From: Leisingera sp. M658 | GTDB lineage: Bacteria > Pseudomonadota > Alphaproteobacteria > Rhodobacterales > Rhodobacteraceae | Reading direction: 5' to 3' | Assembly: GCF_025144145.1 (NCBI RefSeq) | Contig: NZ_CP083546.1 | Location: 2,372,501 to 2,436,500, forward strand | Length of the DNA stretch: 64,000 nucleotides | Shown: one piece after another, positions 24,384 through 52,660 of the stretch | Layout of the letters: every line of letters starts with the position of its first letter | Position numbering within the stretch: the first letter of the stretch is position 1 | Notes under the pieces: generated by a model | What the model was told of the DNA's origin: nothing | What the model saw: only the letters and a program-made list of their open reading frames with translations | The model's database searches: none | Made by a program: the position numbers and the translations under genes

Positions 24384-24427
24384 CTCTCTCGTGACATTCG
24401 CGTTGCGAATGCACTGCCGGGCAGTGG
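24384..24427 (+). repeat. Type A palindromic mini-element 1
   Basis: Ends CTCTCTCG and CTGCCGGGCAGTGG; inner stem CATTCGC/GCGAATG, loop GTT. Lies in the degenerate IS481 at the first catalytic Asp region. Confidence 0.75.
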
Positions 24428-24757
24428 ATGGGGTATCGCTTGAACCGCTGCCGCTTTGGCTTGTCACCCGCGGCATCCGGCAAGCGCGAGATGCCATGCC
24501 GCTGAAGGCACCGATGCAGCGCCGGCCGCGTCAGATGCGGGATCGACGGCTGGAGAGTATAAAGGCAATCATCCAGCGGCAGTAGCGTATGCCGCCGGAA
24601 TGCGGCGATCATTGCCTCCTCCGCTTCGGAGAGAACGGTTGAACGCGGCTCCTTCGGCCCGGTCCTAAAATCCTCCACCGTCGCATGCTTGCGCCACTTC
24701 GCAACGGTCTTGGGATTGATGTCCAGCTCCTTGCTCAGTGCCGCGATCGAAGCTTGT

Positions 24758-24799
24758 CCCTTTCGGGATCATGCTTCGCATAACCCTGCCGGGCAGCGG
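24758..24799 (+). repeat. Type A palindromic mini-element 2
   Basis: Ends CCCTTTCGGG and CTGCCGGGCAGCGG; inner stem ATGC/GCAT, loop TTC. Inserted between GATC and GAAAGC relative to the IS481 copy at 51.4 kb. Confidence 0.8.
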
Positions 24800-24831
24800 A
24801 TCGCTGTATTGCTGCTCTGACGGCGTGCGTG

Positions 24832-24871
24832 CCCTCTCGGCAGATTTGCCATGCAAACCGCCTGCCAGGTG
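24832..24871 (+). repeat. Type A palindromic mini-element 3
   Basis: Left end CCCTCTCGGCAG; inner stem TTTGC/GCAAA, loop CAT; right end degenerate (CCTGCCAGGTGA). Absent from the aligned position of the IS481 copy at 51.4 kb. Confidence 0.75.
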
Positions 24872-25024
24872 ACAGTGCGTGGCGCTCCCGTGACGAACTT
24901 GTCCCATAGTGCTTCGTTCCATTCCAAAGAACAGATCCCACCATCAAACCATGGGATCAAACACCTAGGGCATGTTGAGCACCATATGGAGGACATTGGC
25001 CGACTGGAGTTCATTGTTGGCCCG

Positions 25025-25148
25025 TCTGGCAAGCGGCTGGAGCAATGCTTACAAGGGGCGCGTTGTTGCTGAAACGCTGGTTCCGGGTGTGACCATGAAC
25101 GAGGTGGCTGAGCGGCACGATCTGCGTCCCAACCACCTATCGGCGTAG
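25025..25148 (+). pseudogene. IS66 TnpA (orfA) fragment
   Basis: One frame reads [18 protein letters not shown], then [16 protein letters not shown], typical of the short HTH protein of IS66 elements. It ends at a stop near 25148. Only this fragment survives. Confidence 0.6.
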
Positions 25149-25149
25149 C

Positions 25150-25372
25150 GGGTGTCTGTAATAAAGGCAAAACTCCTGACCATCCCAATACAAAGCTTTA
25201 GCCGGTCGCCGCGGCGACCCCGGAGGGCAAAAAACGGCACCGCCCGCGGGCTTCTGGCGCAGAACATCCTGGGCAAGGGCTGAAAAACCCGCGATGCCTT
25301 TGCGCATGTCTGTGACGCCGCAGGCAAGACAACGACGTCGCTAAGCACGTGTCTTAGATCATTAGGAAACAA
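25150..25372 (-). pseudogene. IS66 TnpB (orfB) fragment, frameshifted
   Basis: On the minus strand two frames together give CGVTDMRKGIAGFSALAQ, then DVLRQKPAGGAVF, and, after a shift, RGRRGDRLKL, the signature of IS66 TnpB. It is opposite in orientation to the TnpA fragment beside it, so the region was rearranged. From 25373 to 25600 I recognise nothing. Confidence 0.55.
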
Positions 25373-25600
25373 TCAAGCAGGCAAAAGAAACCGGGCGCTT
25401 ACCATGAAAGTGAACAAATGGGCTCAGTGCCCAATTTCTCCGCTTGCGGCGCATAGGTCGACTCATTGGACGCGAACGACAGCGCCGCAAAAGAGACGGC
25501 TGAAATTCAAAGGCTTAGCCCTTTTTGCTGATGACCGGTTCCGTCCCACTGCTATCGCGGTGCTTGCGGCGTTGGCATTAGGCAGCATTGAGCCTATTCC

Positions 25601-27166
25601 GTTGAAAAACCCGGCATTTCCGCGGCCCTGCGGCCTTCTACAACAAAGCGCGTTCTCCGCTCTTCATGCCGGACGCGGCGTTTGCGGCAGGGGTAGCAGC
25701 TTTGCGAGCTTTCTGAGGTTCTGGGCGGTGGCTGCGAGGTGGAATTCGTCGCGCGCGCCGCATGGGCCGCGCAATCGGAGCCGTCCCAAACCGAGGATGC
25801 GTTTCAGGTGGGCGAACAGCATCTCGACCTTCTTTCTGAGCTTGCAGGAGATCGCGTATTGCGTGGTTTGGGCGATGGCGCGGGCCACGTCGCGAGAGGG
25901 CTCAAAGATCGAGCGCGTCACTTTGCGCTGCGGCTCCTTGGGGCAGCACCGCGGCTTCAGGGCACAGGCCTCACAGTCTGGTTTGCGGGCCCGGTAGCGC
26001 AGGGTGCCGTCCTTATTGTCGCCCGATCTGGGTGTCGTGAACGCGCGCCGGTATTGCTTGAGCTCCTTGCCGCCAGGGCAGATGCAGGCGTCGTTCCCGG
26101 CATCCTAGGTGAAGCCGGCCCGTTCAAAGGTGCCGTCCTTGCGCCCGGACTTGTCCCCTCTCGGGACATTGCTGCGCAATGCCCTGCCGGGCAGTGGATC
26201 ACCGGGATATGCGGGGCGATCCTGCGCTGCCGGTCCAGCCAATCGAGCATTTCGCCCGTGCCGTAAGCGGTATCGGCGATCAGGCGTTCAGGTTTCAGGT
26301 CGAAGGCATCGCTCACCCGATCCACCATTGTCCGCACGGCACCGGCCCCGGCTTGCCGGATCGAGCGGGTCGCCTCGACATCGAGGATCACGCCATTGCC
26401 GGTGTCGATCAGGTCGTTCGTGGAATAGGCAAAATAGGCGGGTCCACCCCGTGCGCCGGTCCATTGCGAGGCCGGATCGGAATGCGAGGTGAACTTCGGC
26501 TTTACCGGGCTGGCCGCGCCGAAGGCCGCATCGCCGAGCGTCGCCAGATCCTCCCTGACAGCGCGCGGCGCGTTCTCGGGGTTGATCTTCTCGGGGGCCC
26601 AGTCCGCTTGCGGCGACGAGTTCTGCCGGTTGGCATCGGCCTGGATCAGGCTGGCGTCCGCCGCAAAGCGCTGACCACTCGCCAATCCTTCCTTGATGCA
26701 GCGCGCGGCCACCGTCTCGAACAGATGCCGCAAGAGATCGCTATCGCGGAACCGGCCGTGCCGGTTCTTTGAGAAGGTCGAATGGCCGGGCACTGGGCCG
26801 GTCAGATCGAGGCGGCAGATCCAGCGATAGGCGAGGTTGAGATGCACCTCCTCGCAGAGCCGCCGCTCCGAGCGGATGCCCATCGTGTAACCGGCCAGGA
26901 GCATCCGGATCATCAGTTCCGGATCAACCGGCGGCCTGCCGGCCGAACTGTAGAAAGGAGCCAGGTGCCGCCGGATGCCAGACAGGTCGACGAACCGATC
27001 TATCGCCCGAAGCATGTGATCCTGCGGGACATGATCCTCGATCGGGAACTCATAGAACAGCGCGCCCTGCGCTTCCTGCCGTGGCCCCATCATTGCCACG
27101 CACCTCCGCTTGCCTCGCGGAAAGTGAATCAGCACTCAACACCCAAAACAACCCGGGTTTTTCAAC
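25601..27166 (-). mobile_element. IS1182-family element with a dead transposase
   Basis: Inverted repeats GTTGAAAAACCCGG (25601-25614) and CCGGGTTTTTCAAC (27153-27166) bound 1566 bp. The transposase (minus, about 27093 to 25664) shows ALFYEFPIEDHVPQDHMLRA, AADASLIQADANRQNS, IADTAYGTGEMLDWL and the C-terminal RKKVEMLFAHLKRILGLGRL. It is inactivated by a type A palindrome at 26156-26196 (41 bp, frameshifting) and by an in-frame TAG where the family has Trp (GFT*DAG). Without the palindrome the sequence reads HIPVI-DKSGRKDGTFERAG. Confidence 0.82.
26156..26196 (+). repeat. Type A palindromic mini-element 4
   Basis: Exactly 41 bp between GTC and GAT on the plus strand, no target duplication seen. 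Ends CCCTCTCGGGA and CCTGCCGGGCAGTG; inner stem CATTGC/GCAATG, loop TGC. Frameshifts the IS1182 transposase. The cleanest insertion in the set. Confidence 0.85.
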
Positions 27167-27258
27167 AGAACAGGCCCTCAGCCGCCGTTGCTGCCGCGCC
27201 GGGGTGCCGCACTGGCATTGGGCAGCTCGAAGCCGAGGCTGTGTGGAAACTCCCTAGC

Positions 27259-28250
27259 ATGGTAATCTCCAGACGGGCAGCGGGAGTTAATCTGGCAGGT
27301 TTTATCGAGGGCGTAGATCGGGATCAGACAACACTGCTTCCGGAACGGCTTGAAAATTGGATCTGCGGTGATCATCTGGTCCGTGTGGTCGATCTCTTCG
27401 TCGAGGAACTCGATCTGGCTGCGCTGGGTTTCAGCCGTCACGCTCCTGCACGAACCGGGCGGCCGGGGCATCATCCCGCCGTGCTTCTAAAGCTCTTCAT
27501 CTATAGCTATCTGAATTACATCCCCTCTAGCCGCCGCCTTGAGCGGGAGGCCGGGCGCAACATCGAAGTGATGTGGCTGACCGGGCGCCTTGTGCCTGAC
27601 CACAAGACCATCGCCGACTTCCGCCGCGACAACGGCGCCGCCGTTCGCCGGACCTGCGCTCAAATCCTGGAACTGTGCCGCCGTGCTGGTGTCCTCAAAG
27701 GGGCCTGCGTCGCCATTGCCGGAAGCAAGTTCTAGGCCGTCAATAACGGGGACCGGAACTTCACAAAGCGCAAGATTGCAAGCCGATTGGCCCATCTTGA
27801 GGCTGATGTCGAGCGCTACATCGACGAGATGGTCCGCATTGACCGGCAAGAAGCCGGAGAAGCCAGGGTGGAAAGGCTCGCGCATCTAGGTAAGCGCCAT
27901 GGGCGGCTCCGGCAGGAAGTTAAACGCCTTAAGGCGATGGAGAAGGCTCTGGCGGATGCGCCAAATGGGCAGATTTCCCTGACCGACCCGGACGCGCGCC
28001 ATGGCGACCAGCGCGCGTGGCAACGGCCATGTGGGCTACAACGTCCAAAGCGCGGTGATACCGGCACCCATCTGATCGTGGCGCACGAGGTAACCAACCA
28101 GGTTTTTGACCGCGATCAGCTGGCTCCCATGGCCAAGGTGGCGAAGACAGCGCTTGGGCAAAAGAAACTGCACGTCGTCGCAGACAACCAAGCCGTCCAC
28201 TTACAAGATCAACGACGAAGCTGCTCGGGAACAAGGTCGGGACAGCTGAT
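27259..28250 (+). pseudogene. Second IS1182-family transposase, nonsense and frameshift mutated
   Basis: Reads LLPERLENWICGDHLVRVVD, PGHHPAVLLKLFIYSYLN, SSRRLEREAGRNIEVMWLTG and DHKTIADFRRDNG, a different IS1182 subgroup from its neighbour. An in-frame TAG at 27733-27735 interrupts GSKF*AVNN, a frameshift follows near 28000 (LTDPDARHG) and the 3' end is lost. It starts within about 100 bp of the neighbouring element's right repeat. No type A palindrome is present here. 28251-28523 shows no gene. Confidence 0.75.
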
Positions 28251-28523
28251 AAAGGCGAGTTTTCACACAGCCTCAGCCCAAAGCCGACATCGCAATTCGC
28301 ATGCAAGAGTAGTAAAGAACCTTCAGAATACTGCGAAAGCAGGTTGGGGAAATTTGTTTCCGACGTCGGCACATTCCCTGTCTGCAGCTTGGTAGCACCG
28401 CTAAAGGGGTGCATACTTCTATGCCTGTTTTAGGGTTAAGGACTGCCATGAAGTGCCGACAAATGGCATTGGGCAATGCAGGCGGCAGCACTGGGCTGAG
28501 TTAATGTCGGATAGTCTTTCATC

Positions 28524-29864
28524 ATGATACAAAGAGTTGGTTCCTTTCTTCTGGTTTCACCGGCATCCCTTGGATTCAATCTATTGATACTTTGGGCGTA
28601 TCTCCACCTTGGGCCAGTCTCAGGCACGGTAGGGTTGCGGAGCTTTGCTGAGCTTTTGACAGGCGTATTGCGTCACGGATCGGTGCTCCATTTGGCTGTC
28701 AACGCTTTGATCATCGCCTTGGCGGGATGGCATGTAGAGCCTCGCCTCGGCCATATGGGCACTGTTTTATTAATGCTAGCATGCGCTGTGTTGGGGACAG
28801 GGGCGGAACTCGTCATTGTAGGACCCGGCTATGCGGGAGCCTCTGGTGTGGCCTATGGGCTTGGCAGCTGCGCTGCGCTTTCAGTGGCGTCCAAGAAACA
28901 GCGCCCTTGGTTTCTGCTTTGGGGCGCGGCACTGCTTGCAGCCGAGTTGCATTTCGCCGATGAAAGCCTCGCAATTTATTCCCACGCTGTTTCTGCCGCC
29001 CTGGGAGGGGTATTCTATATGTTCGAAAATCTCTTTGGCACCAAAGCACCCGCGCTGAAACCTATGGTACTCAACCATCTTTCCCGCGTGGTTGAAATCA
29101 TTGCACAAACGGATGAAGACGACGCGGCAGAAGCCGAGGCCGCAATGCTCAGCCAAGGTGTCAGCAATATGTTCATTCTTAAACAGGGCAGCAGCATTCT
29201 TGGTGTGACTGGATATACTCCGGATACCGAAGCCGATGGCGTTGCATGGTTATCCTGGACTTATCTGGACCAGGACTGCGCCGGCCAGGGGCTGGGGCGG
29301 CAGATGATGTCAGACCTATTTCAGAAACTTACAGACAGACAGATGCGAAAGCTCTTCATTGAAACCAGTGACTACGCGGAAGACGGTGAACAGATCTATG
29401 CAGCCGCGCACCGTATGTATGAGGAGTTTGGTGCGGACCTGGAAGTAACGGTGCCGGATTACCATGAACCGGGAGAAGCCAAGATGATCTATGCGCTGGT
29501 CAACCATGATCAGGCCGCCCCACCCGCACCAGAGCTGAAGGTTTCCAATGGGATCCAGTTCACCGGGGCCGAAAAAGCTCCGGAAGGAGACAAGGTAGCT
29601 GGTCTAAACTGGCAGGAAACGGGTAAAGGCCTAGAGGGGGCAGAAGCCGTTCTGGCAGATGCTGCCGTCAATGGCGCACGCATGGCTGTGCTGGTGCTGC
29701 CGTCAGATCTTTCAACGGCAAATAGTGCAGCTCTTCGATCACAAGGGTTCAAACTTTGCGGCAGTCTGAAAGATTTTTACAGTTTGGGGTTGCAGCAGGA
29801 TTGGTGGGTATGCTCATTGCACCCGAATGATAAAGACTGCCCCGAATTTCATACAGAGAATTGA
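28524..29864 (+). CDS. Rhomboid intramembrane protease fused to a GNAT acetyltransferase
   Basis: A 446-residue two-part protein. Residues 1-170 are hydrophobic with rhomboid hallmarks: HLAVN (H56, N60), the catalytic Ser in GASG (S107) and a His in SHAVSAALGG (H154). Residues 185-330 form a GNAT domain (GQGLGRQMM acetyl-CoA loop, then a long acidic helix region). A further about 110 residues resemble a second, degenerate GNAT-like unit. It is first in a probable operon: the next gene starts 3 bp after its stop. The pairing of rhomboid and GNAT in one chain is unusual, and the substrates are unknown. Confidence 0.72.
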   Translation: MIQRVGSFLLVSPASLGFNLLILWAYLHLGPVSGTVGLRSFAELLTGVLRHGSVLHLAVNALIIALAGWHVEPRLGHMGTVLLMLACAVLGTGAELVIVGPGYAGASGVAYGLGSCAALSVASKKQRPWFLLWGAALLAAELHFADESLAIYSHAVSAALGGVFYMFENLFGTKAPALKPMVLNHLSRVVEIIAQTDEDDAAEAEAAMLSQGVSNMFILKQGSSILGVTGYTPDTEADGVAWLSWTYLDQDCAGQGLGRQMMSDLFQKLTDRQMRKLFIETSDYAEDGEQIYAAAHRMYEEFGADLEVTVPDYHEPGEAKMIYALVNHDQAAPPAPELKVSNGIQFTGAEKAPEGDKVAGLNWQETGKGLEGAEAVLADAAVNGARMAVLVLPSDLSTANSAALRSQGFKLCGSLKDFYSLGLQQDWWVCSLHPNDKDCPEFHTEN

Positions 29865-29866
29865 AT

Positions 29867-30454
29867 ATGCTTGGAAAAGTTAAAACTATCGCATTTATTG
29901 GCATTGCCGGTTTTGTTGCCTACTCCATGTTCCTTGCCCCCCAAAGAGAGCAGACAGCGGACCTGGGCCAGGTCTTGGATCGCACCGAGTATGCGCTGAT
30001 GAACTACGAAGCCTTCTTAGGTGAAAACAATGTTACCACGGCAGGCGATTCGCAGATCAAGGAATTTACTGAGTATCTGACAAACGTCATGAACTCCGAA
30101 CCTCGGTTCTTTGATCAAACCCTTGGTCTTGAAACCCAGCAGGATGCCAAATTCCTGGGCTTTGCCGATGCAAACGAAAATGGCGTTCAGGACAGTGAAG
30201 AGGGTGACGTTTTCACCGTTGAAATCGACGAGGAAAACAAGCGCCTGATCGCCTCGGATGTGAGCGGAAACTCGACCGGCCTGCGGTTCTCCGGGACCGG
30301 ATTCCTGGCCGGTGCGCTGATCGGCTCGCTGATCAGCCGCCAGCGGTCCGCCGGGGTGACAAAATCAAGCTTCAACAATCGCACAATCACCCCGCGGTCC
30401 AGCTACAAGGCACCTTCAAGCGCCCGCTCGGGCGGCCTGCGTGCCGGTAAGTAA
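29867..30454 (+). CDS. Membrane-anchored periplasmic hypothetical protein
   Basis: 195 residues from the ATG at 29867. A single N-terminal hydrophobic segment (KTIAFIGIAGFVAYSMFL) anchors or exports it. The middle is acidic with an EF-hand-like FADANENGVQDSEEG, and the C-terminus is Gly/Ser/Arg-rich after a second weakly hydrophobic GFLAGALIGSLI. It lies between the rhomboid-GNAT gene and the spermidine-synthase homologue, all in the same direction, so a shared membrane function is likely. Family not recognised. Confidence 0.7.
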   Translation: MLGKVKTIAFIGIAGFVAYSMFLAPQREQTADLGQVLDRTEYALMNYEAFLGENNVTTAGDSQIKEFTEYLTNVMNSEPRFFDQTLGLETQQDAKFLGFADANENGVQDSEEGDVFTVEIDEENKRLIASDVSGNSTGLRFSGTGFLAGALIGSLISRQRSAGVTKSSFNNRTITPRSSYKAPSSARSGGLRAGK

Positions 30455-30534
30455 TCCGGATCGCGAACGCGAACGGCAGGCCTGGATGCGTTTCGGCGTT
30501 CGGGCCATTCTTCATTCTACCAAAAGAGGTCGCT

Positions 30535-32082
30535 ATGACGGAGGCTTCCAGCCTGAACCGCTATCAGGATTTACCCCGGAAACAGGGCGCAATTCTTCTG
30601 GGTTCGATCCTTGTGGTAGCATTGTGCGGGATCGTCTATGAGCTGATTATTGGAACCGTTTCCAGCTATCTGCTTGGCAACTCAGTTTATCAGTTTTCGC
30701 TGACAATAGGGTTCTTCATGTTCGCCATGGGGGTTGGGTCTTATGCTTCACGTTTCATCAATGGGAACCTGATCCAGGCCTTTGTCCAGGTAGAGATTAT
30801 TCTGGCTCTGGTTGGCGGGCTGTGCAGCATCTCCCTTTTCATGCTCTTTCCGATGGCACCCTGGTTTTATACAGTGGGAATGTTCACCTTCATCTCGGCT
30901 ATCGGGTTTCTGGTCGGGCTTGAAATTCCTTTGCTGACCCGGGTTCTGTCGGAAGGCTCCACAGTCCGGGAGTCGATTTCAGGCGTACTGTCACTAGACT
31001 ATCTTGGCGCGCTGTTCGGGTCAGTGATGTTTCCACTGCTGCTGCTGCCCTCCTTGGGACTGATTTCGTCATCTTTTGCAATCGGTCTGACCAATGCAGC
31101 AGTTGCCCTTCTGAACGTATTGTGGTTGCGCGACCATTTGGATGCTCCCCGGCGTATGATGGGCTATGTGCTGGCCACAGTGGCCTTGCTGTTCGGTCTG
31201 ACTCTGTCTGCAGGCTGGATCACAGCTTTTGCCCAGGACCATCTCTATTTCGACCGCATCGTCTGGCGCAAACAATCACAGTATCAGACGCTGGTTGTGA
31301 CAAACACCTGGAAGACAAACGATGTGCGCCTCTATATTGATGGGCATTTGCAATTTTCAGAGGCCGATGAATACCGCTATCACGAGGCCTTGGTGCATCC
31401 GGTGATGTCCTGGGGCAAACCGGCAAAAAACGTTCTGGTCCTGGGGGGGGGAGATGGGCTGGCGATTCGGGAAGTTCTAAAGCACCCAAGTGTTGAGCGC
31501 ATTGACCTGGTGGATCTCGACCCTGCAATGACGGACTTGGGGAGAGACTTTGCACCGGTGGTCCGCTTGAACAATGGCAGCATGCAGGCCTCGCAGCTGC
31601 ACGTGTACAATCAGGATGCCTTTCTTTTTGTGAAAGAAACGGACCAGCGGTACGACCGGATCATTATCGACTTCCCAGACCCCCACAACGAAGCTCTGTC
31701 CAAGCTCTATTCTGTGGAATTCTACGCTATGGTCGCTGCGATCCTGACCGAAGATGGTACACTTGTGACTCAAAGCAGCTCTCCGTTCTTTTCGCCGCAC
31801 ACCTATTGGACTGTTTCCGAGACCCTCAAAGAGATTTTTCCCGAAGTTGCGAATTACCAAATCCCGATTCCATCGTTTGGCATCTGGGGTTTCAATTTGG
31901 CCAGCCGCACTGAAAATCAACCGAAAACCCCCTTCCCTGAGGATCTAAGGTCTTTGAAAACCAAGGACTTCGAGGCAGCCAAGGTCTTCGCGAAGGATTT
32001 ACTGCCCCAGCGCCCCGTTCAAGTGAATTCAATTTTTAGTCCAGTTATCTATCAGGAATACGCGCTCGACTTGGCGCAATAA
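30535..32082 (+). CDS. Membrane spermidine-synthase-like aminopropyltransferase (long SpeE)
   Basis: A 515-residue protein. Residues 15-235 hold about seven transmembrane segments. The C-terminal half is a SpeE-fold methyltransferase-like domain: YQTLVVTNTWKTNDVRLYID, HEALVHP, LVLGGGDGLAIREVLKH, DLVDLDPAMTDL, DAFLFV, and DFPDPHN (family D/N motif). Long SpeE proteins of this type cluster with DUF350 and similar membrane genes. AGAGG six bases before the ATG supports the start. It overlaps the next gene by 1 bp. Polyamine synthesis is a family inference. Confidence 0.8.
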   Translation: MTEASSLNRYQDLPRKQGAILLGSILVVALCGIVYELIIGTVSSYLLGNSVYQFSLTIGFFMFAMGVGSYASRFINGNLIQAFVQVEIILALVGGLCSISLFMLFPMAPWFYTVGMFTFISAIGFLVGLEIPLLTRVLSEGSTVRESISGVLSLDYLGALFGSVMFPLLLLPSLGLISSSFAIGLTNAAVALLNVLWLRDHLDAPRRMMGYVLATVALLFGLTLSAGWITAFAQDHLYFDRIVWRKQSQYQTLVVTNTWKTNDVRLYIDGHLQFSEADEYRYHEALVHPVMSWGKPAKNVLVLGGGDGLAIREVLKHPSVERIDLVDLDPAMTDLGRDFAPVVRLNNGSMQASQLHVYNQDAFLFVKETDQRYDRIIIDFPDPHNEALSKLYSVEFYAMVAAILTEDGTLVTQSSSPFFSPHTYWTVSETLKEIFPEVANYQIPIPSFGIWGFNLASRTENQPKTPFPEDLRSLKTKDFEAAKVFAKDLLPQRPVQVNSIFSPVIYQEYALDLAQ

Positions 32083-32245
32083 TGTTCCAACTGTTGAGTT
32101 TTGAACACGGATCCCATTTAGGCGCTTCAGACAACAGCTCGTGGCAAATGTATTTTCACCTTGCTTTTGCAAGTGTCATTTTGTGCATCTGTCTAACTTT
32201 GTTAAATCCGCTTTCTGCGCAGAGTGGACGTGACCTAGCCCCACT
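32082..32245 (+). pseudogene. Fourth gene of the membrane cluster, cut by an IS3 element
   Basis: Begins MFQLLSFEHGSHLGASDNSS and continues into a hydrophobic segment (YFHLAFASVILCICLTLL). After about 55 codons the frame runs into an IS3-family element at 32246. In related clusters a small membrane protein such as DUF350 follows the long SpeE. The remainder of this gene is not found right of the IS, so it was deleted as well as interrupted. Confidence 0.6.
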
Positions 32246-32886: not shown

Positions 32887-32923
32887 CCGCTGCCGGCAGG
32901 CGGTGTTTACACCGCCGAGAGGG
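32887..32923 (-). repeat. Type A palindromic mini-element 5
   Basis: On the minus strand: CCTCTCGGC, stem GGCGGTGT/ACACCGCC with AA loop, CCTGCCGGCAGCGG. Between AGWPLS and VNDKRV of the IS3 orfB. Confidence 0.8.
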
Positions 32924-39531: not shown

Positions 39532-39572
39532 CCCTCTCATCGTTTGCTTTGCAAACGACTGCCGGGCAGCGG
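39532..39572 (+). repeat. Type A palindromic mini-element 6
   Basis: CCCTCTCA, stem TCGTTTGC/GCAAACGA with TTT loop, CTGCCGGGCAGCGG. Inserted in the IS3 orfB between DDYSRYII and KLCTNMRAEDV. Confidence 0.8.
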
Positions 39573-40007: not shown

Positions 40008-40051
40008 CCATTGCCCGGCAGGCGATTTGCAACGCAAATCTGCCAAGAGGG
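40008..40051 (-). repeat. Type A palindromic mini-element 7
   Basis: Minus strand: CCCTCTTGGCAG, stem ATTTGC/GCAAAT with GTT loop, CCTGCCGGGCAATGG. Lies between TTFYR and YDRYVEGG; removing it restores the Trp codon expected there. Confidence 0.82.
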
Positions 40052-42559: not shown

Positions 42560-42597
42560 CCGCTGCCCGGCAGCGCATGCCAGCATGCGCGAGAGGG
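42560..42597 (-). repeat. Type A palindromic mini-element 8
   Basis: Plus strand: CCGCTGCCCGGCA, stem GCGCATGC/GCATGCGC with CA loop, GAGAGGG. Inserted between ATTCATC and GAC of the IS3 orfB start. Confidence 0.8.
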
Positions 42598-42727: not shown

Positions 42728-42767
42728 CCGCTCTCGCACATGCTGCGCATGTGCTGCCGGGCAGTGG
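42728..42767 (+). repeat. Type A palindromic mini-element 9
   Basis: CCGCTCTCG, stem GCACATGC/GCATGTGC with TGC loop, CTGCCGGGCAGTGG. Between KKAPCPL and DKVNRQF of orfB. Confidence 0.8.
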
Positions 42768-42945: not shown

Positions 42946-42991
42946 CGCTCTCGGCAGATTTGGCTTTGCCAAATCGCCTGCCGGTCAATGG
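42946..42991 (+). repeat. Type A palindromic mini-element 10
   Basis: CGCTCTCGGCAG, stem ATTTGGC/GCCAAAT with TTT loop, CCTGCCGGTCAATGG. At the Trp codon of IVGWRVS in orfB. Confidence 0.82.
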
Positions 42992-43028: not shown

Positions 43029-43071
43029 CCCCTCTCGGCAGCATGCTTCGCATGCGCATGCCGGGCAATGG
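43029..43071 (+). repeat. Type A palindromic mini-element 11
   Basis: CCCCTCTCGGCA, stem GCATGC/GCATGC with TTC loop, ATGCCGGGCAATGG. At the TGG overlapping the Leu-Asp codons of GFVLDALEQ in orfB. Confidence 0.82.
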
Positions 43072-43143
43072 ATGCTCTGGAGCAGGCTGTTCACGAGCGG
43101 CGGCCGACAAAGGCGATGGGGCTTGTTCATTACTCCGGCCGCC

Positions 43144-43180
43144 GTTCTCAGCGATGCTGGCATCGCCTGTCACGCAGTGG
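43144..43180 (+). repeat. Type A palindromic mini-element 12
   Basis: GTTCTCA, stem GCGATGC/GCATCGC with TG loop, CTGTCACGCAGTGG. More divergent ends. Inserted after the second catalytic Asp region (HSDRGSQ). Confidence 0.65.
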
Positions 43181-43290
43181 GTCAGCCAATACCTTTCGAT
43201 CAAATACACAGAGCGGTTGGGAGAAGCTGGTATCGAACCCTCTGCGGGCAGCGTCGGAGACAGCCATGAGTTCAAGCAGATCCGCGCAGC

Positions 43291-44058: not shown

Positions 44059-44100
44059 CCCTCTCGGGACATTGCCGGCGTAATGCCCTGCCGGGCAGTG
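44059..44100 (+). repeat. Type A palindromic mini-element 13
   Basis: CCCTCTCGGGA, stem CATTGC/GTAATG with one G-T wobble, CCTGCCGGGCAGTG. After the RAHH motif of the IS5 transposase. Confidence 0.82.
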
Positions 44101-44128: not shown

Positions 44129-44162
44129 CACTGCCCGGCAGGCGGCTGTGCCGCCGAGAGGG
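44129..44162 (-). repeat. Type A palindromic mini-element 14
   Basis: Plus strand: CACTGCCCGGCA, stem GGCGGC/GCCGCC with TGT loop, GAGAGGG. Immediately before the first catalytic Asp (DSTVIRAH) of the IS5 transposase. Confidence 0.82.
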
Positions 44163-45161: not shown

Positions 45162-45540
45162 GTTATTGCCCTTCTATTCTCCGGAATTGGGGCGCGCGTA
45201 AATGCAAGACCCCGCAGACACGCGGTAGCGCATCAAGGGCAATGACACTCTGTCTCAAACCTATCAGACACCTCTGACGCCGGAGAACCATGCAACGCCC
45301 CATTACGGTATCTTGGGAGGGTGCGAAGGCGCCTTCGTCATGCTGAAAGCATGCCTCCGGCATGACGGGAAAGTCAGGTGCGGGCCGTGCCTCTGGCCCG
45401 GCCAAAAGACATTTTCAAGAATCTCCAACATCACCTGCAATAAGTGCGCTATCCGCCCGCCTCTTGCGCGATACCACCCGCAGCGCTATATGCGCCGCAC
45501 CGGTCGCAGCCTACCCGGTCAACAAAACAAGGGTACAAAC

Positions 45541-46242
45541 ATGAAGACTATCGTTATCTGCTCGGGCGGGCTGGATTCCGTTTCGCTTGCCCATATGGTT
45601 GCTGATGAACATCAGCTGACCCGTCTTGTCTCCTTTGATTACGGCCAGCGCCACAAGAAGGAGCTCGACTATGCCGCCGCTGCCGCTGAGCGGCTTGGCG
45701 TGCCACATGACATCATCGACATGCGCGGTATCGGCGCAGCCCTTTCCGGCTCTGCCCTAACGGATGATATCGATGTGCCGGACGGCCATTACGAAGAAGA
45801 ATCCATGAAGGTTACCGTGGTGCCGAACCGCAACGCCATCATGCTGACCATCGCCTATGGCATCGCTGCCGCCAATGGCGATGAGGCCGTGGCCACGGCA
45901 GTGCATGGCGGCGATCACTTCATCTATCCGGACTGCCGCCCGGCTTTCACCGAGGCCTTTGATGCGATGCAGCGCGCCGCTTTAGATGGCTATGCCGACG
46001 TGCGGCTCTACACGCCGTTTGTGCACCGCTCCAAGGCCGACATTGTCACCGCCGGTGCCAAGCACAATACCCCCTTTGCCGATACCTGGTCCTGCTACAA
46101 GGGCGGCGACAAGCACTGCGGGCGCTGCGGCACCTGCGTGGAGCGGCGCGAGGCATTTCATCTGGCGGACATCGCAGATCCGACGGACTACGCCGACCCC
46201 GATTTCTGGCAGCAGGCGATTGCCGCCAAGGACGGCGCCTGA
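45541..46242 (+). CDS. queC: 7-cyano-7-deazaguanine synthase
   Basis: A 233-residue QueC: ATP-dependent conversion of 7-carboxy-7-deazaguanine to preQ0. The PP-loop CSGGLDSVSLAH lies at residues 8-19, and the zinc Cys cluster is near the C-terminus (CYKGGDKHCGRCGTCVERR). The ATG at 45541 (MKTIVICSGG) starts the conserved fold, so the longer upstream frame is ignored. First of four tightly packed que genes; the next ATG overlaps its stop (TGATG). Confidence 0.95.
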   Translation: MKTIVICSGGLDSVSLAHMVADEHQLTRLVSFDYGQRHKKELDYAAAAAERLGVPHDIIDMRGIGAALSGSALTDDIDVPDGHYEEESMKVTVVPNRNAIMLTIAYGIAAANGDEAVATAVHGGDHFIYPDCRPAFTEAFDAMQRAALDGYADVRLYTPFVHRSKADIVTAGAKHNTPFADTWSCYKGGDKHCGRCGTCVERREAFHLADIADPTDYADPDFWQQAIAAKDGA

Positions 46243-46607
46243 TGTTCCGGATCACCAAGGAGTTCCATTTCTCCGCCTCGCATCAGCTGACACATCTGCC
46301 GTCCGGCCATCAATGCGCCCGGCTGCATGGGCACAACTACGTGGTGGTGGTGGAACTTGCAGCCAAGGAGCTGAACGCGGATGGCTTTGTGCGCGACTAT
46401 CATGAGCTGAAGCCGCTGAAAGAATACATCGACGGAACCTTTGACCACCGGCACTTGAACGATGTGCTGGAAGGCCATTCAACGGCTGAAAACATGGCCA
46501 AGCATTTCTATGACTGGTGCCATGCGCGCTGGCCGGAGGTTGCTGCCGTGAAGGTTTCCGAAACACCCAAAACCTGGGCGGAATACAGGCCGGAGTACCG
46601 GCCATGA
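46242..46607 (+). CDS. queD: 6-carboxy-5,6,7,8-tetrahydropterin synthase
   Basis: A 121-residue QueD/PTPS-I protein, which turns dihydroneopterin triphosphate (from FolE2 at 18.9-20.0 kb) into carboxytetrahydropterin. Zinc ligands are visible in HFSASHQL and RLHGHNY, and DHRHLND and the C-terminal [12 protein letters not shown] complete the family pattern. It overlaps queC by 1 bp and queE by 4 bp. Confidence 0.94.
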
Positions 46608-47311
46608 CCCTGCGCATCGCGGAAATTTTCGGCCCCACGATCCAGGGCGAAGGCGCATTGATTGGGGAGCCTACGGTGTTTGTCCGTGCCGGCGGCTGTG
46701 ATTACCGCTGTTCCTGGTGCGACAGCATGCATGCGGTGGACAGCGCCAACCGCCACGACTGGGCGGTGATGGCGCCAGAGGAAGTCATGGGCGAGGTGCG
46801 CCGCCTGTCCGGCGGCAAGCCATTGACGGTGTCGATCTCGGGCGGCAATCCGGCGATCCAGGACTTCGCCCCGGTGATCGCCTACGGCAAGACCGAGGGC
46901 TACCGCTTTGCCTGCGAGACCCAAGGCTCTGTCAGCAAGCCGTGGTTTGGTGATCTTGACACTTTGGTGCTCAGCCCCAAGCCGCCGTCCAGCGGTGAAA
47001 GGGTGGATTGGAAAGCCTTCGACCTATGTCTTGAAGCCGCCAAGGGCTGCGGCCAGGCAGTAATGAAGATCGTGATCTTTGATGACAAGGATTACGCCTG
47101 GGCCAAGGCCGCCGCGGAGCGCCATCCCGAACTGCCATTGTATCTGCAGCCCGGCAATCCGGAAGTTGACCCGGCCCTGCCGGTCGATCTGAACCAAGCC
47201 ACCGACCGGCTGTTGTGGCTGATTGAAAAAGTAACCGGCGACGGCTGGTTCACCCCCCGCGTCCTGCCCCAGCTGCATGTGCTGGTCTGGGGCAACAAAC
47301 GCGGCGTCTGA
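46604..47311 (+). CDS. queE: 7-carboxy-7-deazaguanine synthase (radical SAM)
   Basis: A 235-residue QueE. The radical-SAM cluster is CDYRCSWC (C-x3-C-x2-C) near residue 32, preceded by [20 protein letters not shown], with SISGGNPA as the SAM-binding GGE-like motif. It catalyses the third step of preQ0 synthesis. The ATG at 46604 overlaps the queD stop, so the upstream extension of the frame is not used. Confidence 0.93.
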
Positions 47312-47327
47312 ACATAGGAACCCTGAC

Positions 47328-47792
47328 ATGTCTGACAGCATCTACAGCAATCTGAAACAGCTGGGCGGCGATACCGTGGTGCCGGCCAGCCCGGAACAGG
47401 CGGAACTGGAGCGGGTGCAGAACCCGCAGGCCGACACGGCCTATAACGTGCGCTTCACCGCGCCCGAGTTCACCTCGCTCTGCCCGATGACCGGCCAGCC
47501 GGATTTTGCCCATCTGGTGATCGACTACGTACCCGGTGAGTGGCTGGTGGAAAGCAAATCGCTAAAGCTTTTCCTGACCTCCTTCCGCAATCACGGCGCC
47601 TTTCACGAGGATTGCACGGTCTCCATCGCCCGCCGGCTGGCGGACTTCCTGCAGCCGCAATGGCTGCGCATCGGCGGCTACTGGTATCCGCGCGGCGGCA
47701 TTCCGATTGATGTGTTCTGGCAAACCGGCCCGATGCCTGAGGGCGTCTGGATCCCCGACCAAGGCGTGCCCCCCTACCGCGGCCGCGGTTGA
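47328..47792 (+). CDS. queF: NADPH-dependent preQ0 reductase
   Basis: A 154-residue unimodular QueF that reduces preQ0 to preQ1 for tRNA queuosine. The catalytic Cys lies in [14 protein letters not shown], and the QueF motif [19 protein letters not shown] and HEDCTV are present. The start at 47328 ([14 protein letters not shown]) follows queE by 16 bp with a TAGGAA ribosome binding site. Last gene of the operon, followed by a good terminator. Confidence 0.95.
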
Positions 47793-47820
47793 CACAACCA
47801 AAAGCATCTTTGACACAGTT

Positions 47821-47850
47821 CAGCCCGGCAGCGCAGTTGCCGGGCTTTTG
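47821..47850 (+). terminator. Rho-independent terminator after queF
   Basis: AGCCCGGCA (47822-47830) and TGCCGGGCT (47838-47846) form a 9-bp stem with a 7-nt loop, followed by TTTTGC, 29 bp after the queF stop. Confidence 0.85.
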
Positions 47851-48030
47851 CTATTTAAAACAAGCGATACCCTTTCCCGGCCGCCGGATTACAAGCGGTG
47901 GAGAGTTCAGTGTGAATTTCAACAATTTACCGTAAAAGTAGTTAAGATTTTAGTGAACCTGCACTCTGAGGCGGCGTCAGGAGACGATCCGGGCTATCCG
48001 GATACATAATTTTTGTGACGGGGGACCTTT

Positions 48031-48717
48031 ATGAACTTTCTGGATTTGGGCAAAACGCTTTCGGGGTATTTGAACGCGCTTTCGCAGGCCGGCCTTCAGG
48101 TCGAAATGTTCACGGATTTTGAGAAAGTGCCCGAGGCCGCCGCCGAAACCGGCCGCCGGTTCCAGATGCCGGGATTTGCCATCGAACGGGCTGACCACAC
48201 CCGGAACTCAGCCTTTTGGCTGTTCCTGAAGGAGGGCGACACCTATGTCGGCGGTGCGGCCTCGATGCTGCAGGACCTGGGCCGCGAAACCCTGGCTGAG
48301 TTTCTGCTGCGCACCTCGCGGCATCAGTTTCCAAACGATGCAGGCGGCGGCGTTGAAAGCGTCGCAGAACCGCTGGCGCGGGAGGTCAGCGGCCGCCTGG
48401 CCTATATCGGCGAGCTGAACTTTCTGCCCGGCCACCGCGGCAGACGGGCGGAGCGGCTGGAGCCCTTCATGCGGATCTTTCAAATCCTAGCGATCCAGAA
48501 ATGGGATGTGGACTGGATCTACGCCTTCATCCCCGATCGCCACATGCAAGCCCGGCTGGACCTGGTCTACGGCTTCAGCCGGGCAATTCCGCGGGCGCAG
48601 AAGTGGCGCGATCCGGAACCGGAAGTGCGCAGCAGCACCGAATGGTTTGTCGGCGCGTCCCGGCTGGAAATGGAGCACATGCTGCAAAGCGACTTAGCCA
48701 AATTTGATGTCCTGTGA
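48031..48717 (+). CDS. Hypothetical protein, possibly GNAT-fold
   Basis: A 228-residue soluble protein with a GGGGGA ribosome binding site. The central stretch AYIGELNFLPGHRGRRAERL is reminiscent of a GNAT acyl-CoA loop, and WDVDWIYAFIPDRHMQARLD follows. I do not recognise the family. It is convergent with the HTH gene, overlapping it by 24 bp (48694-48717). Confidence 0.7.
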   Translation: MNFLDLGKTLSGYLNALSQAGLQVEMFTDFEKVPEAAAETGRRFQMPGFAIERADHTRNSAFWLFLKEGDTYVGGAASMLQDLGRETLAEFLLRTSRHQFPNDAGGGVESVAEPLAREVSGRLAYIGELNFLPGHRGRRAERLEPFMRIFQILAIQKWDVDWIYAFIPDRHMQARLDLVYGFSRAIPRAQKWRDPEPEVRSSTEWFVGASRLEMEHMLQSDLAKFDVL

Positions 48718-49443
48718 GAAATTGGCCACCATCAGCTTGCCGTCCGGCAAATATACCGGGGCCAGAACCCGCCGGTACTGCCGGGTAAAGCGGCGCCCGT
48801 TCAGCAGGTTCACGTCGATCGACGGATGGGTGATCACCGGCTCGCCGCGGCTGATCGCCTCGCTGTGCGCCAGTACAAGGTCAGAATTGAGCCTGTCGCT
48901 GAACCCGTTCAGGGTGTTCCGCAGCTGCTCGCTGCTTGCCACCTCAAAGCAAATCGAGGCCAGGCTGGCCGGACCTGACTTGATCGGCTGAATGCGGTTC
49001 TTCTCCGCATCCGGCGGGCTGAACAAGTCCACCTGATGCTGCAGCTGGTCAAAGCCTTCCAGGCGGCCGCTGTTGGCAAACCACCAGTCCAGGAAGTCCT
49101 GCAGCGACACGTCGCAGCCGCGGTACTGGCGGGAGCGGGCAGCCGATTGCAACTGAGCATTGAGAATTTCAAATGCCTTGCGTCCAGCCTCCTCCGCCCG
49201 GCGGTCCGGCAGCAGCTCGAGACCAGCAGTGTCCGACGAGAAATAGTGAAACGACACCCCCAGCCCGCGCGCCAGCGCATCCAGCATGCTCCAGCCGATC
49301 TCACGCTCGTTCTTCAGCGCGCTGTTGAAAGTGCCATAGGGGATCCCGCATTTCAGCGCCGCCTGCCGGTTGGACAGGTTCATATCCGTCAAAAGCGCGG
49401 AGATCTTTTTGTGAATAAGCGCCATATGCGTAAGATCTTTCAT
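48694..49443 (-). CDS. XRE-like HTH protein with C-terminal sensor-like domain
   Basis: About 249 residues if the ATG at 49443 (MKDLTHMALIHKKISALLTD) is used. 49464 is an alternative, and neither has a strong ribosome binding site. The HTH lies at residues 8-65 (MNLSNRQAALKCGIPYGTFN, then DALARGLGVSFHYF), followed by a helical middle and a PAS-like end (FTRQYRRVLAPVYLPDGKLM). It resembles phage-type or chromosomal regulators of roseobacters. The ligand is unknown. Confidence 0.65.
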   Translation of the reverse strand: MKDLTHMALIHKKISALLTDMNLSNRQAALKCGIPYGTFNSALKNEREIGWSMLDALARGLGVSFHYFSSDTAGLELLPDRRAEEAGRKAFEILNAQLQSAARSRQYRGCDVSLQDFLDWWFANSGRLEGFDQLQHQVDLFSPPDAEKNRIQPIKSGPASLASICFEVASSEQLRNTLNGFSDRLNSDLVLAHSEAISRGEPVITHPSIDVNLLNGRRFTRQYRRVLAPVYLPDGKLMVANFSQDIKFG

Positions 49444-49528
49444 ATTTAGCGAAACATCTTGCATAAAACAACCGGCACGGCAATGCAGTGCCCGCGTTGA
49501 TTTCGGCGGCGGCCTGGAAACCCGGCTC

Positions 49529-49979
49529 ATGCCCTGGATGACCCAGCAGCCCGCAGAAAACCATTCCTGGCGGCCGCTGGAAACAGGCGAAGGGGTCAGG
49601 GTTGTCGCACCAACCCGAGATCTTGCCAAGGCCGTCCTTCCGGGCGCCATCCCGACCCGCTCCATCCCGCGGCACGGCGCGCCCGGCACCTTCCGGCTGA
49701 GTTCCGAGGGCGATGTGCATCAGGCGCAGTCGATCCTTGACATTCTGCCGACCTCCAAAAGCACGCTGGCCATGCTGCGTGACTACGGGTCCCATTTGCC
49801 TGCTGTGATCGACCAGCCGTTGAACGGCGGAACTCTGGTTGATGCCTTTCAGCCGGCGGCCGAGGCGCTGCCCCTTTGGGAATCGCGCATCAGCCTGGGC
49901 CGGGTGCAAGTTCCGGATGCCCGGCCGGGCTATGCGGAGCTGGAGCTGATCGTAAGCGGCGCCTGGAGAGCACCGGACT
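49529..49979 (+). pseudogene. Phage baseplate gp25/GpW-like remnant
   Basis: About 150 codons. QAQSILDILPTSKSTLAMLR, DYGSHLPAVIDQPLN and WESRISLGRVQVPDARPG match the GPW_gp25 baseplate family (Mu/P2-type tails). The 3' end runs into an IS66 remnant at 49980 and no other tail gene lies nearby. It is therefore a fragment of an older prophage unrelated in position to the Mu-like phage at 57-64 kb. Confidence 0.6.
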
Positions 49980-50779
49980 TTCAACTTGACGGCTGGAAGT
50001 TCCAGGGAAGGAGTTCGCCGGCCGACTGGCAGGGTGACCTGCAGCGATGGCTTCGAGGGTGGCCTGGAGGGAGGCGAAGGGTGCGACGCCGCTGATCTTC
50101 GCCGTGGCGATGAGCGAAGCGATGAGGCCCCAGGTGCGGCCGCCTTCGTCGTGACCGGCAAAAAGTGCGTACTTCCTCGTCAGAGCGATCGAGCGGATCA
50201 GGTTCTCGCACCACTGCCTGGCAGGCGATTGCGCAGCGATCTGCCGAGAGGGACATTGGAGCCGATCCCGACGCGGCCGTCGCGCAGGAAGGTCTGCAGC
50301 CCGCCCCACTGGCGGTGGATGCAGGTCGGCTTCTCTCCGAGGCGGGACTTTGAGGAGATCCGGCGGCGCTGGCTTTGCAGCCATTCTCAGAGACCGGCGG
50401 CCAGCGGCGCGGTGCGGTCCTGCCGGGCCGGCAGCCGCTGGCCAGAGCCCCTGCCGCGGATCTCACCTTCGATGCGGTAGAACTCTGCAATCCGGCGCAG
50501 CCCCACCTCTCGGACGAAGTCAGGATCGAGCCGGCGCCCGGCACTCCCGCAGCCCGGAATCCGTGCCAGCTGCGCCGCCAGCCAGGCCTCCAGCTCATCA
50601 AGCAAAGGCTTTGGTAGGGTTTGGCGCAGTTGAGCGCGATCCTGCGGCGGTAGCCCGCGGGCGTCCTTTTCTACGGCATATAGCTCAGCAATCCGGCGGA
50701 TCGCCTCTTCGGCAACGGCCAGTCCTTGAGATTGGAAGACGTCAACAAACTTGCGCCAGATATGCGCCATGCAGGCAAC
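49980..50779 (-). pseudogene. IS66 TnpC remnant carrying a type A palindrome
   Basis: Minus strand: AEEAIRRIAELYAVEKDARG, LPKPLLDELEAWLAAQLARI, and after frame changes NLIRSIALTRKYALFAGHDE, GGRTWGLIASLIATAKISGV and LPWNFQPSS at the end. The palindrome at 50213-50253 splits the V-ENLIRSI motif that carries the third catalytic residue (Glu). The 5' part of the element is missing and an IS3 copy abuts at 50780. Confidence 0.75.
50213..50253 (-). repeat. Type A palindromic mini-element 15
   Basis: Plus strand: CACTGCCTGGCAGGC, stem GATTGC/GCGATC (one wobble) with GCA loop, CTGCCGAGAGGG. At the catalytic Glu motif of IS66 TnpC. Confidence 0.8.
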
Positions 50780-51044
50780 TGAACCGCACCGGGTTTGCCG
50801 GAGACTGATTTCAGTTAGTTACGCGGCAATGTCCTCAGTTTCCAGAGCGGCGTAGAAATTGGCCTCTGCTTCTGCCGGCGGGATGTTCCCAATGGGTTCA
50901 AGCAGGCGGCGGTTGTTGAACCAATCCACCCATTCGAGCGTTGCGTATTCCACGTCTTCGAAGTTGCGCCAAGGGCCGCGGCGGTGAATGAGCTCGGCTT
51001 TGAACAAACCGTTGATCGTCTCGGCCAGGGCGTTCTGCGCCTTC

Positions 51045-51069
51045 AAATGATCCCCCGGATCATTTGATC
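51045..51069. repeat. Type C palindromic element 3 (hybrid junction)
   Basis: TCAAATGATCC-CCC-GGATCATTTGA. Its flanks combine the orfA-side flank of element 1 and the orfB-side flank of element 2. Confidence 0.8.
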
Positions 51070-51230
51070 CGCTGCGCGAACGACCCGCACTGCCGGCGGC
51101 ATCAGTTGGAACACCCGCCCGCTTGCCGCTGTCGATTTCCGCCTTCTTCACCCACTCATTCAGCCTGTGCGCCGAACAGCCGATCTTCGCAGAGATCGGC
51201 ATGATTGCCTGCCAGCGGGAACTGTGCTGG

Positions 51231-51276
51231 CCGTTTGCCATTGGGCTCGAACCAATGGCGCCTTCAATGGCTCACT
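51231..51276 (+). repeat. Type B palindromic mini-element 6
   Basis: GTTTGCCATTG-GGCTCGAA-CCAATGGCG then TTCAATGGCTCAC. Same orfA position as element 3 at 42161, but the loop differs (GGCTCGAA against GGCACGGA). Confidence 0.8.
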
Positions 51277-51288
51277 TGTCCAGCACCA

Positions 51289-52127
51289 GGTGTTTAGTCC
51301 CGGTGTGTGGTGGTCTACTGATCTGTGACCATCACAAGGGTGCATTATGGGGCAAATTCTTCACGGGAGCGCCAAGACCACGCACGCCGTCCGAGCTCTC
51401 ATACAGCGATCGAAAGCTTCGAACGCGGCGCTGAGCCGGGAACTGGGCATCAACGTCAAGACAGTCGCCAAGTGGCGCAAGCGCGACAGCGTTCAAGACG
51501 CCGCGATGGGACCGAAGCAGGCTCATTCCACGGTTCTCAGCATCGAAGAAGAAGCCGTCATCGTCGCCTTTCGACGCCACACGCTATTGCCGCTGGATGA
51601 CTGCCTCTACGCACTGCAGCCGACCATCCCGCATCTGACCCGCTCGTCGTTGCATCGCTGCCTGCAGCGGCATGGCATCAGCCGTTTGCCTGAGGTTGAA
51701 GGTGACAAGCCGAAGAAGAAGTTTAAGCGTTATCCTATTGGGTACTTTCATCTCGACCTCGCGGAAGTTCGCACCGGCGAGGGCAAAACCAGGTTGTTTG
51801 TCGCAATAGATCGCACGTCGAAGTTTGCCTATGTCGAACTGCACGAGAAAGCAGGCAAGATGATCTCTGCCCAGTTCTTGCGCAATTTGATCGCGGCGGT
51901 GCCTTACAGGGTCCATACGGTTCTCACCGACAACGGCATCCAGTTTACCAATCGCAAGCAGGACACATCGGCGTTCCAGCACATCTTTGACCGCGTCTGC
52001 CGCGAGAATGAGATCGACCACCGCCTGACAAAGGTGAACCACCCCTGGACGAACGGCCAGGTCGAGCGCATGAACCGGACAATCAAAGAAGCGACGGTCA
52101 AGCGCTACCACTACGACACGCATTCTC
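51289..52127 (+). mobile_element. IS481-family element, 3' truncated
   Basis: The transposase begins at 51347 ([20 protein letters not shown]). [22 protein letters not shown], catalytic core FHLDLAEVRTGEG, VLTDNGIQFT, WTNGQVERMNRT: the full DDE set is present and no type A element lies inside. The genuine protein ends near KRYHYDTHSQL (52127), where IS5 sequence begins, although the frame runs on to 52180. It is inserted in IS3 copy 2. It served here as the reference for the damaged copy at 24.2 kb. Confidence 0.82.
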
Positions 52128-52660
52128 AGCTTGAACGCCGTGCTTGCGGGCCTGCCACTCACCATCGCCAAGGAACTTGATCCCGGTGCTGTCCGTTGCC
52201 CGGCAGGGCATTGCATAGCAATGTCCCGAGAGGGGACGCAGGTTCAGCGGACCATCGGCGCGGCGATACGGGATCTGGACGGCCAGCGTTCTATGGGCTT
52301 ACGCGGCCCCACTGGGGCCACGGTCCCATCTCACTCTGCCGGCGGCACAGTGTAGAGAAATCGGGAACGGGCCAGTCCAACCCCGCCAGGTGCAAAAGGC
52401 TGGCGACCATCCCGGCGGTCTGCCGGAGTGGCAACTTGAACAGAACCTTGATCGACAGGCAGAACTGGATCGCCGAGTTCGAGAAGACTGGTGGACGCCC
52501 CGGTCGCCCTTCATGCGGCGCGAGCCAGGTCATCTCTTTGTCCAACCGGATCAGAAGCGACCCGCGCTTCCTGAGCGCATCGTTGTAGCTGGACCAATTC
52601 GTCGTGCGGTAGCGGGCAGGTGCGGGCTTGCTCATCTAACCCGTCTAACCGCATGGATTC
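52128..52660 (-). mobile_element. IS5-family fragment with a type A palindrome
   Basis: Minus strand from 52635: MSKPAPARYRTTNWSSYNDA, RKRGSLLIRLDKEMTWLAPH, GRPGRPPVFSNSAIQFCLSI, VPDFSTLCRRQ, a frameshift, then PLNLR, the palindrome, DSTGIKFLGDGEWQARKHG and truncation at 52128. The palindrome lies immediately before the first catalytic Asp (normally LLVDSTGIKF). 52661-52963 shows no gene. Confidence 0.78.
52194..52234 (-). repeat. Type A palindromic mini-element 16
   Basis: Plus strand: CCGTTGCCCGGCAGG, stem CATTGC/GCAATG with ATA loop, TCCCGAGAGGG. Directly before the first catalytic Asp codon of the IS5 transposase. Confidence 0.83.

Follow-up and report, generated by a model that had tools for sequence, protein, structure and literature searches.

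Type A copies in the window

The window, i.e., the whole stretch of 64,000 nucleotides of Leisingera sp. M658 analysed here (contig 1, positions 2372501-2436500), harbors 15 copies of a unit of about 41 bp, referred to as type A, whose organization, as defined by alignment, is CCCTCTC-hairpin-CTGCCGGGCARTG. The copies were refound by a covariance model and assigned to their host insertion sequences (IS) by transposase protein similarity; they are the following (window coordinates, strand):

24384..24426, + strand: type A, in the remnant of an IS481-like transposase (family assigned by eye)
24758..24798, + strand: type A, within the same IS481-like remnant as the copy at 24384
24832..24869, + strand: type A, belonging to a subclass whose right end differs (CTGCCAGGTGACAG...)
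26156..26196, + strand: type A, 41 bp, interrupting an IS1182 transposase whose Roseibium relative has the empty site TTGTC|GATG (the bar marks the junction)
32888..32923, - strand: type A, in an IS3 gene; the identical insertion is present at five places of the genome
39532..39571, + strand: type A, in an IS3 gene
40009..40051, - strand: type A, sharing its IS3 with the copy 39532..39571
42561..42597, - strand: type A, in an IS3 gene holding four copies
42729..42766, + strand: type A, in the IS3 of the copy 42561..42597
42946..42990, + strand: type A, in the IS3 of the copy 42561..42597
43030..43070, + strand: type A, in the IS3 of the copy 42561..42597
44059..44100, + strand: type A, in an IS5 (DUF4096) transposase
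44129..44162, - strand: type A, in the IS5 (DUF4096) of the copy 44059..44100
50212..50252, - strand: type A, in an IS66 gene
52194..52234, - strand: type A, at site A1, hosted by an incomplete copy of a multi-insert IS of the IS5 family

Transposase protein similarity lies within 300 bp of all 15 copies, while 12% of the window is transposase-like by the same measure; this agrees with the initial annotation of this DNA, which had placed the copies in transposase genes of several IS families. It had also counted sixteen of them, fifteen of which are confirmed here; the sixteenth was not placed, the stretch 43141-43182, which might correspond to it, being a weak match to the model (E = 0.25) that was not accepted. 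Both orientations are present, as described, and the trimmed copies are 34-45 bp long, with a mode of 41.

The covariance model was built from the 15 window copies, whose recovery (E <= 1.8e-6) is thus by construction. In the window, the right motif CCTGCCGGGCARTGG, searched with up to 3 mismatches, has 34 matches vs. a mean of 7.96 in shuffled sequences (none of 100 shuffles reached this number); the other end alone, CCCTCTCGG, with up to 1 mismatch, occurs at chance frequency (23 vs. 20.0). In the whole genome, scoring 150 of the 7169 first-look candidates gave at least 100 covariance-model matches with E <= 0.001, and the motif with up to one mismatch has 74 matches vs. none for the reversed-pattern control.

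In each unit a stem-loop is flanked by the tail CCCTCTC on the 5' side and by a tail of 13 nt (CTGCCGGGCARTG) on the 3' side. The 3' tail is itself nearly palindromic; in the alignment of the window copies, neither tail is the inverted copy of the other. The stem-loop often consists of 3 bp, a bulged A, 6-7 bp, and a 3-nt loop. Some units end on the right with CTGCCRGG followed by T, often RACA; the members of this subclass are the window copy at 24832-24869, three units on contig 1 (positions 720707, 586907, and 3587945), and those at L091:381 and L091:1601, which suggests that they form a sister family of type A.

Insertion junctions and hairpin structure

The comparison of host IS with uninterrupted relatives defines the ends of the unit. 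The sharpest case is the IS3 of Rhodobacteraceae bacterium Alg231_04, which, compared with an annotated intact IS3 transposase of Leisingera aquaemixtae, contains exactly 41 extra bases at a junction where no base is duplicated or lost (flanks with 97.8% identity over 180 bp; 96.0% over two pieces). The IS1182 of the window equals its intact Roseibium relative plus 41 bp at TTGTC|GATG, and the multi-insert IS5, aligned with an uninterrupted Sulfitobacter transposase, shows net type A inserts of 39, 39, 42, and 41 bp. Among the loci examined, empty relatives were reported for at least 102 elements, many of them at 68-80% identity only, and a minority of the matches listed differ by one or a few bases at the junction. 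Where examined, these relatives agree with the earlier statement that deleting a copy restores the expected protein. The empty sites place the ends at CCCTCTC...CARTG, the next G being part of the target GAY; hence, of the near-constant ends originally described, the recurrent tails hold, whereas the right boundary had to be corrected.

The initial annotation would have been overturned if the units were native components of their IS, and this is ruled out by the uninterrupted relatives. A broader form of this explanation, in which the units are either native IS parts or template-switch scars at quasi-palindromes, fits a palindromic sequence inserted without target duplication; however, the conserved tails recur at 191 distinct junctions, and the Roseibium IS1182 and the L. 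aquaemixtae IS3 contradict it, so that we regard it as hardly credible.

Over these 191 distinct junctions (a set in which six elements trimmed to 25-29 bp, with misplaced junctions, were retained), the frequency of C at position -1 is 0.81, that of G at +1 is 0.90, that of A at +2 is 0.72, and that of T or C at +3 is 0.86. GAT or GAC is found at 125/191 junctions vs. 3.3% in the background, and the element is 41 bp long in 102/191 cases. Judged from these alignments, type A is an insertion joined at C|GAY, without target duplication in the sharpest cases, and the number of independent insertions is large. As a separate observation, an IS5 of Pseudorhodobacter turbinis (L108:490-1610) carries a unit in frame, with a different stem, at the site called A2 in the M658 genome; this might reflect an ancient insertion common to both, whose stem has since been compensated, or a second hit on the same site.

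The claim that stems vary while their pairing is kept was examined on 121 distinct rows from 79 loci of public genomes (the match N16 was left out). The alignment was fitted to the model, and so leans to structure; the controls in which the partner column was slid use the same alignment. In these rows 94.2% of the stem cells are paired, 216 stem cells are changed on both sides vs. 68.5 in shuffles, and the covariation score is 0.504 vs. 0.109 after shuffling, falling to 0.060 or less in every control with the partner slid by 1-3 columns. The claim is therefore borne out, and the covarying stems, together with the uninterrupted relatives, support the proposal of a new small palindromic non-autonomous element. 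As for known RNA families, no match at gathering score was found in the window, and five loci gave one weak, unrelated match.

Genomic distribution and effect on the host IS

The genomic location of type A was analysed on 212 sites, no two of which share exact 25+25-base flanks: 81 distinct ones from the M658 genome and the loci of 19 relatives, plus 131 among the matches listed when public genomes were scanned for an exact pattern. A local set of 34 transposase proteins, including 13 fragments taken from element contexts (their IS family names being assigned by eye), matches within 300 bp of 156/212 sites. Of the sites left, 40/51 had a single flank fragment compared with Pfam; matches to transposase families add, by hand count, 19 sites (S7, S8, S12, S40, S59, S63, S78, N2, N7, N32, N57, N63, N68, N69, N93, N102, N105, N113, and N122), where S12, S78, and N69 were counted as sharing the IS or the fragment of a scanned site. 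Furthermore, S45 and S47 are located at Y2_Tnp matches, and N109 matches an IS91 empty site. In total, 178/212 sites are in or beside transposase genes of about ten IS families. No host was called by the tool for 20/212 sites, several of which look like IS3 by eye, while S31 has only helix-turn-helix families.

The same match within 300 bp is found at 230 of 15520 background positions (1.5%), and transposase-like DNA amounts to about 1.9% of the genome according to a two-stratum estimate (18.3% in the 278 kb around copies, the rest as in a background sample). This 800-kb sample was placed once the copies were known and skips the stretches around them, so its transposase content (0.87%) is low; its lack of any unit (lowest E 0.42) follows in part from this design and is hence no independent evidence. 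Since the sample cannot carry such weight, the argument for an IS bias rests on the whole-genome search, in which 44/54 distinct sites are in or beside transposase genes. The enrichment put forward in the initial annotation is thus confirmed, and it greatly exceeds what chance would give. Its observation that type A was confined to IS genes does not extend to other Rhodobacterales, in which copies are also found in intergenic positions, in a repeat of about 125 bp, and at a traG-like gene.

About 13 sites are not in IS (N17, N30, N34, N36, N46, N49, N66, N67, N85, S42, S53, S56, and probably S32), N49 being beside or in the traG-like gene. N16, from an acidobacterial metagenome-assembled genome, shows no hairpin by eye and was taken as a chance match; it is counted as a miss among the 212. 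At L169 (twice), L184, L139, and L141 the unit is embedded in the intergenic repeat of about 125 bp, whose ends are complementary and which is empty in two relatives (L240 and L243), reading GGTCAGGC|GATGGC. The empty repeats read C|GAT, and therefore the same insertion also occurs outside IS. The repeat itself is widespread (L169:6317-6442, L240, L243, and other relatives), has the ends GCCGCGCCATCGCCTGACC...GGTCAGGCGATGGCGCGGC, and gave no Rfam match in the four carrier loci scanned.

A further group of intergenic hairpins has type-A-like tails followed by CGGGAGTATTT or a similar sequence, a motif that recurs behind other hairpins of the M658 genome:

C1:2183814 (M658 genome): CGGGAGTATTT-type hairpin
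C1:2267399 (M658 genome): CGGGAGTATTT-type hairpin
C7:16236 (M658 genome): CGGGAGTATTT-type hairpin
L123:4399: CGGGAGTATTT-type hairpin
L135:72: CGGGAGTATTT-type hairpin

Three model matches in the M658 genome are terminator-like hairpins followed by CGGGAGTATTT. Such hairpins appear to form a gene-end class of their own, which might serve as a gene-end signal in this group.

The distribution raises the possibility that type A is a specialist of IS, either a hyperparasite entering transposing IS intermediates or a host silencing system acting through frameshifting hairpins. In favor of this explanation are the enrichment at transposase genes, in the M658 genome as in the whole set, the breadth of about ten host families, the predominance of shifted reading frames (44/56 scorable copies; the remaining 12/56 are in frame), and the gathering of the 91 chromosomal copies in 44 clusters vs. 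88 expected at random; moreover, few of the 54 sites of the M658 genome are plainly intergenic (S42, S53, and S56, which belong to the gene-end class and may be unrelated), which favors some targeting. However, the intergenic and traG-like copies show that the preference is not absolute, C|GAY is short and common, the clustering derives in part from several copies of a single IS5 that holds four units, and the IS with multiple insertions still transposed. In addition, distinct IS sites can accumulate without targeting, because selection purges genes and IS become amplified; a refuge effect would thus have the same sign. On balance, a specialist of this kind appears possible but doubtful. As to the silencing originally suggested, the mostly shifted frames agree with it, while the continued transposition of a multiply inserted IS does not.

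This last IS, an IS5 of 1.25 kb, carries, besides four type A units, a hairpin insert of a second kind. Seven of its copies were compared, six of them showing 98.9-99.9% identity to the first; perfect 9-bp duplications flank 2/7 copies, and one copy has 8 of 9. The copies also bear unrelated deletions of 1 bp and 7 bp, and no full-length uninterrupted match to the group was found in the M658 genome. As read from these copies, the IS5 transposed after acquiring its five inserts (four type A and the second kind), and mobilization in trans is apparently the simple reading.

The insertion usually shifts the frame and should therefore break the transposase. One might suppose instead that the transposases stay functional, the units being skipped at translation (as in byp/hop) or read in frame in the manner of Rickettsia palindromic elements (RPE). 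This would suit the multi-copy state of the unit-carrying IS, as well as one Pseudorhodobacter IS whose 39-nt insert is in frame and without a stop by eye; nevertheless, the shifted frames, the small number of empty junctions read by eye, none with a matching pair of take-off and landing codons, the two deletions in the carrier IS5 copies, and the missing full-length uninterrupted match to that group in the genome make it very improbable.

The second hairpin insert is unrelated to type A, is 43 bp long in L009 (AGTGAGATGGGACCGTGGCCCCAGTGGGGCCGCGTAAGCCCAT), where it shares the IS5 with type A units, and is found at about three distinct sites; two more of the six loose matches look unrelated. 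Its matches are listed below:

52316-52338 of the window, - strand: second-kind hairpin insert
L009:1271-1295: second-kind hairpin insert
L106:917-941: second-kind hairpin insert
L056:1472: second-kind hairpin insert
L132:133: second-kind hairpin insert

Mobilization and relationship to known elements

A covariance-model search of relatives, proposed in the initial annotation, gave matches in 47/148 genomes under stricter filters, all 47 belonging to one family. One query matches 110 plasmid records, and the organism names among the matches listed are, we presume, those of Rhodobacterales; a viral collection yielded four stretches for one pattern, and no match to one 42-bp query was found in annotated phages at E <= 0.01.

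Taken together, type A is probably a non-autonomous palindromic element, recognized by its structure, mobilized in trans, and retained chiefly within IS. An enzyme acting in trans would recognize the structure of the hairpin and the sequence of the tails; the element would then be copied and joined at C|GAY without staggered cuts. Since the joining is precise and without duplication, the target is short and one-sided, and the hairpin is kept by structure, we infer a single-strand or recombinase-type reaction, in which the element might move as a folded single strand through an HUH-type or recombinase-type enzyme. IS DNA would be its main habitat, being dispensable, repeated, and horizontally mobile, and the IS broken by the insertion would remain movable in trans.

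Several observations weigh against this interpretation. Concerning structure, pairs with a change on both sides are not more numerous than shuffling gives (8 vs. 6.9; 79/500 shuffles), single strands fold with ordinary energies (8 foldings, z from 0.06 to -2.7), 2/7 folded copies adopt a structure other than the covarying stem, and hairpin-templated repair, and not selection, could account for part of the covariation. Concerning movement, which is read here from sequences, the strand preference relative to the host gene is not strong (75:51), and 4/7 copies of the multi-insert IS5 are without duplication (2-4 of 9). Concerning the mover, the Pfam family Y1_Tnp (PF01797) has no match in the M658 genome (25/148 genomes match), a crude scan of the loci examined disclosed no element of greater length with the same ends, and the ends of seven IS91 copies, in ten regions examined, do not match type A.

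These last results bear also on the idea that type A derives from a known single-strand transposon resident in these genomes, IS91/ISCR or IS200/IS605, of which it would be an isolated or truncated end. It is known that these families have a hairpin near their ends, a one-sided target, and no target duplication, and type A shares the three traits; in addition, each of the 8 genomes with at least 30 copies, as counted up to a ceiling of 42, possesses Y2_Tnp. However, this link is confounded, as Y2_Tnp genes themselves host type A units; the family occurs in only 11/39 other positive genomes, and three genomes of the positive family (G037, G067, and G076) have Y2_Tnp and, at the search sensitivity used, no element. 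Across the 148 genomes no clean association of either Y1_Tnp or Y2_Tnp with the element emerged. Furthermore, the ends of one IS200 copy, like those of the seven IS91 copies, do not resemble type A. Elements of the IS200/IS605 type are processed on single strands by a Y1 HUH enzyme, and the M658 genome lacks a Y1_Tnp match; this origin is therefore unlikely. Type A also differs from IS200/IS605 and IS91 in having no gene, one main hairpin, a length of 41 bp, and no ends shared with the few copies inspected.

The structured, trans-mobilized element favored here can be compared with other small repeats. It resembles repetitive extragenic palindromic (REP) elements of the GTAG and CGTC superfamilies, as well as REPINs and the RAYT/TnpA_REP system, in being a small single hairpin with a conserved unpaired end, a variable stem, and many copies; the bulge in the stem is a further likeness, since the E. 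coli TnpA_REP requires one (PMC8266576). According to PMC3733652, REP elements are mostly intergenic and have a terminal tag GTAG or CGTC (with TGTC and CCTC variants), the stems of the CGTC type opening with AT pairs. Unlike them, type A has no GTAG/CGTC tag, its stem opens with G-C pairs, the CCTC of its tail is not at the foot of the stem, the tail is long (13 nt), and the loop is mostly of 3 nt; moreover, its sites are mainly in or beside transposase genes rather than intergenic, and, in contrast with the GTAG class, no cognate Y1 transposase match is present in the M658 genome.

RPE are similar to type A as palindromic insertions inside genes of an alphaproteobacterium, and are noted, according to PMC10969869, for in-frame insertion in metabolic genes. 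The likeness to RPE proposed initially thus holds for size and style, whereas type A is mostly frame-shifting and located in transposase genes. By the features tested, it is REP- or RPE-like in style and a member of neither group.

Miniature inverted-repeat transposable elements are likewise short, non-autonomous, and presumably spread in trans; they are marked by the terminal inverted repeats of a resident IS and by a target site duplication. Type A does not seem to possess such repeats in their usual form, and its insertion leaves the target unduplicated (Roseibium IS1182, L. aquaemixtae IS3, and part of the listed empty relatives). Finally, GC clusters and byps of yeast mitochondria are tiny mobile hairpins; they differ in organism and target, and no take-off/landing codon pattern was seen at the type A junctions read. 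In the portions of the literature returned by our search, no description of type A in Rhodobacterales was found.

If this interpretation is true, few mobile DNAs known in bacteria would be as small as type A. The exact empty sites, the defined target, the covarying hairpin, and the occurrence in many Rhodobacterales genomes make the mobilizing enzyme directly huntable. Type A also disturbs the annotation of transposases in Rhodobacteraceae and, at the same time, provides a natural tally of how IS break and why broken IS keep moving. More tentatively, a 41-bp hairpin family preferring other mobile elements might be a dedicated hyperparasite or an IS-silencing agent of Rhodobacterales and involve a new enzyme class; it would enter about ten IS families, possibly via a transposition intermediate, and would turn autonomous IS into non-autonomous passengers.

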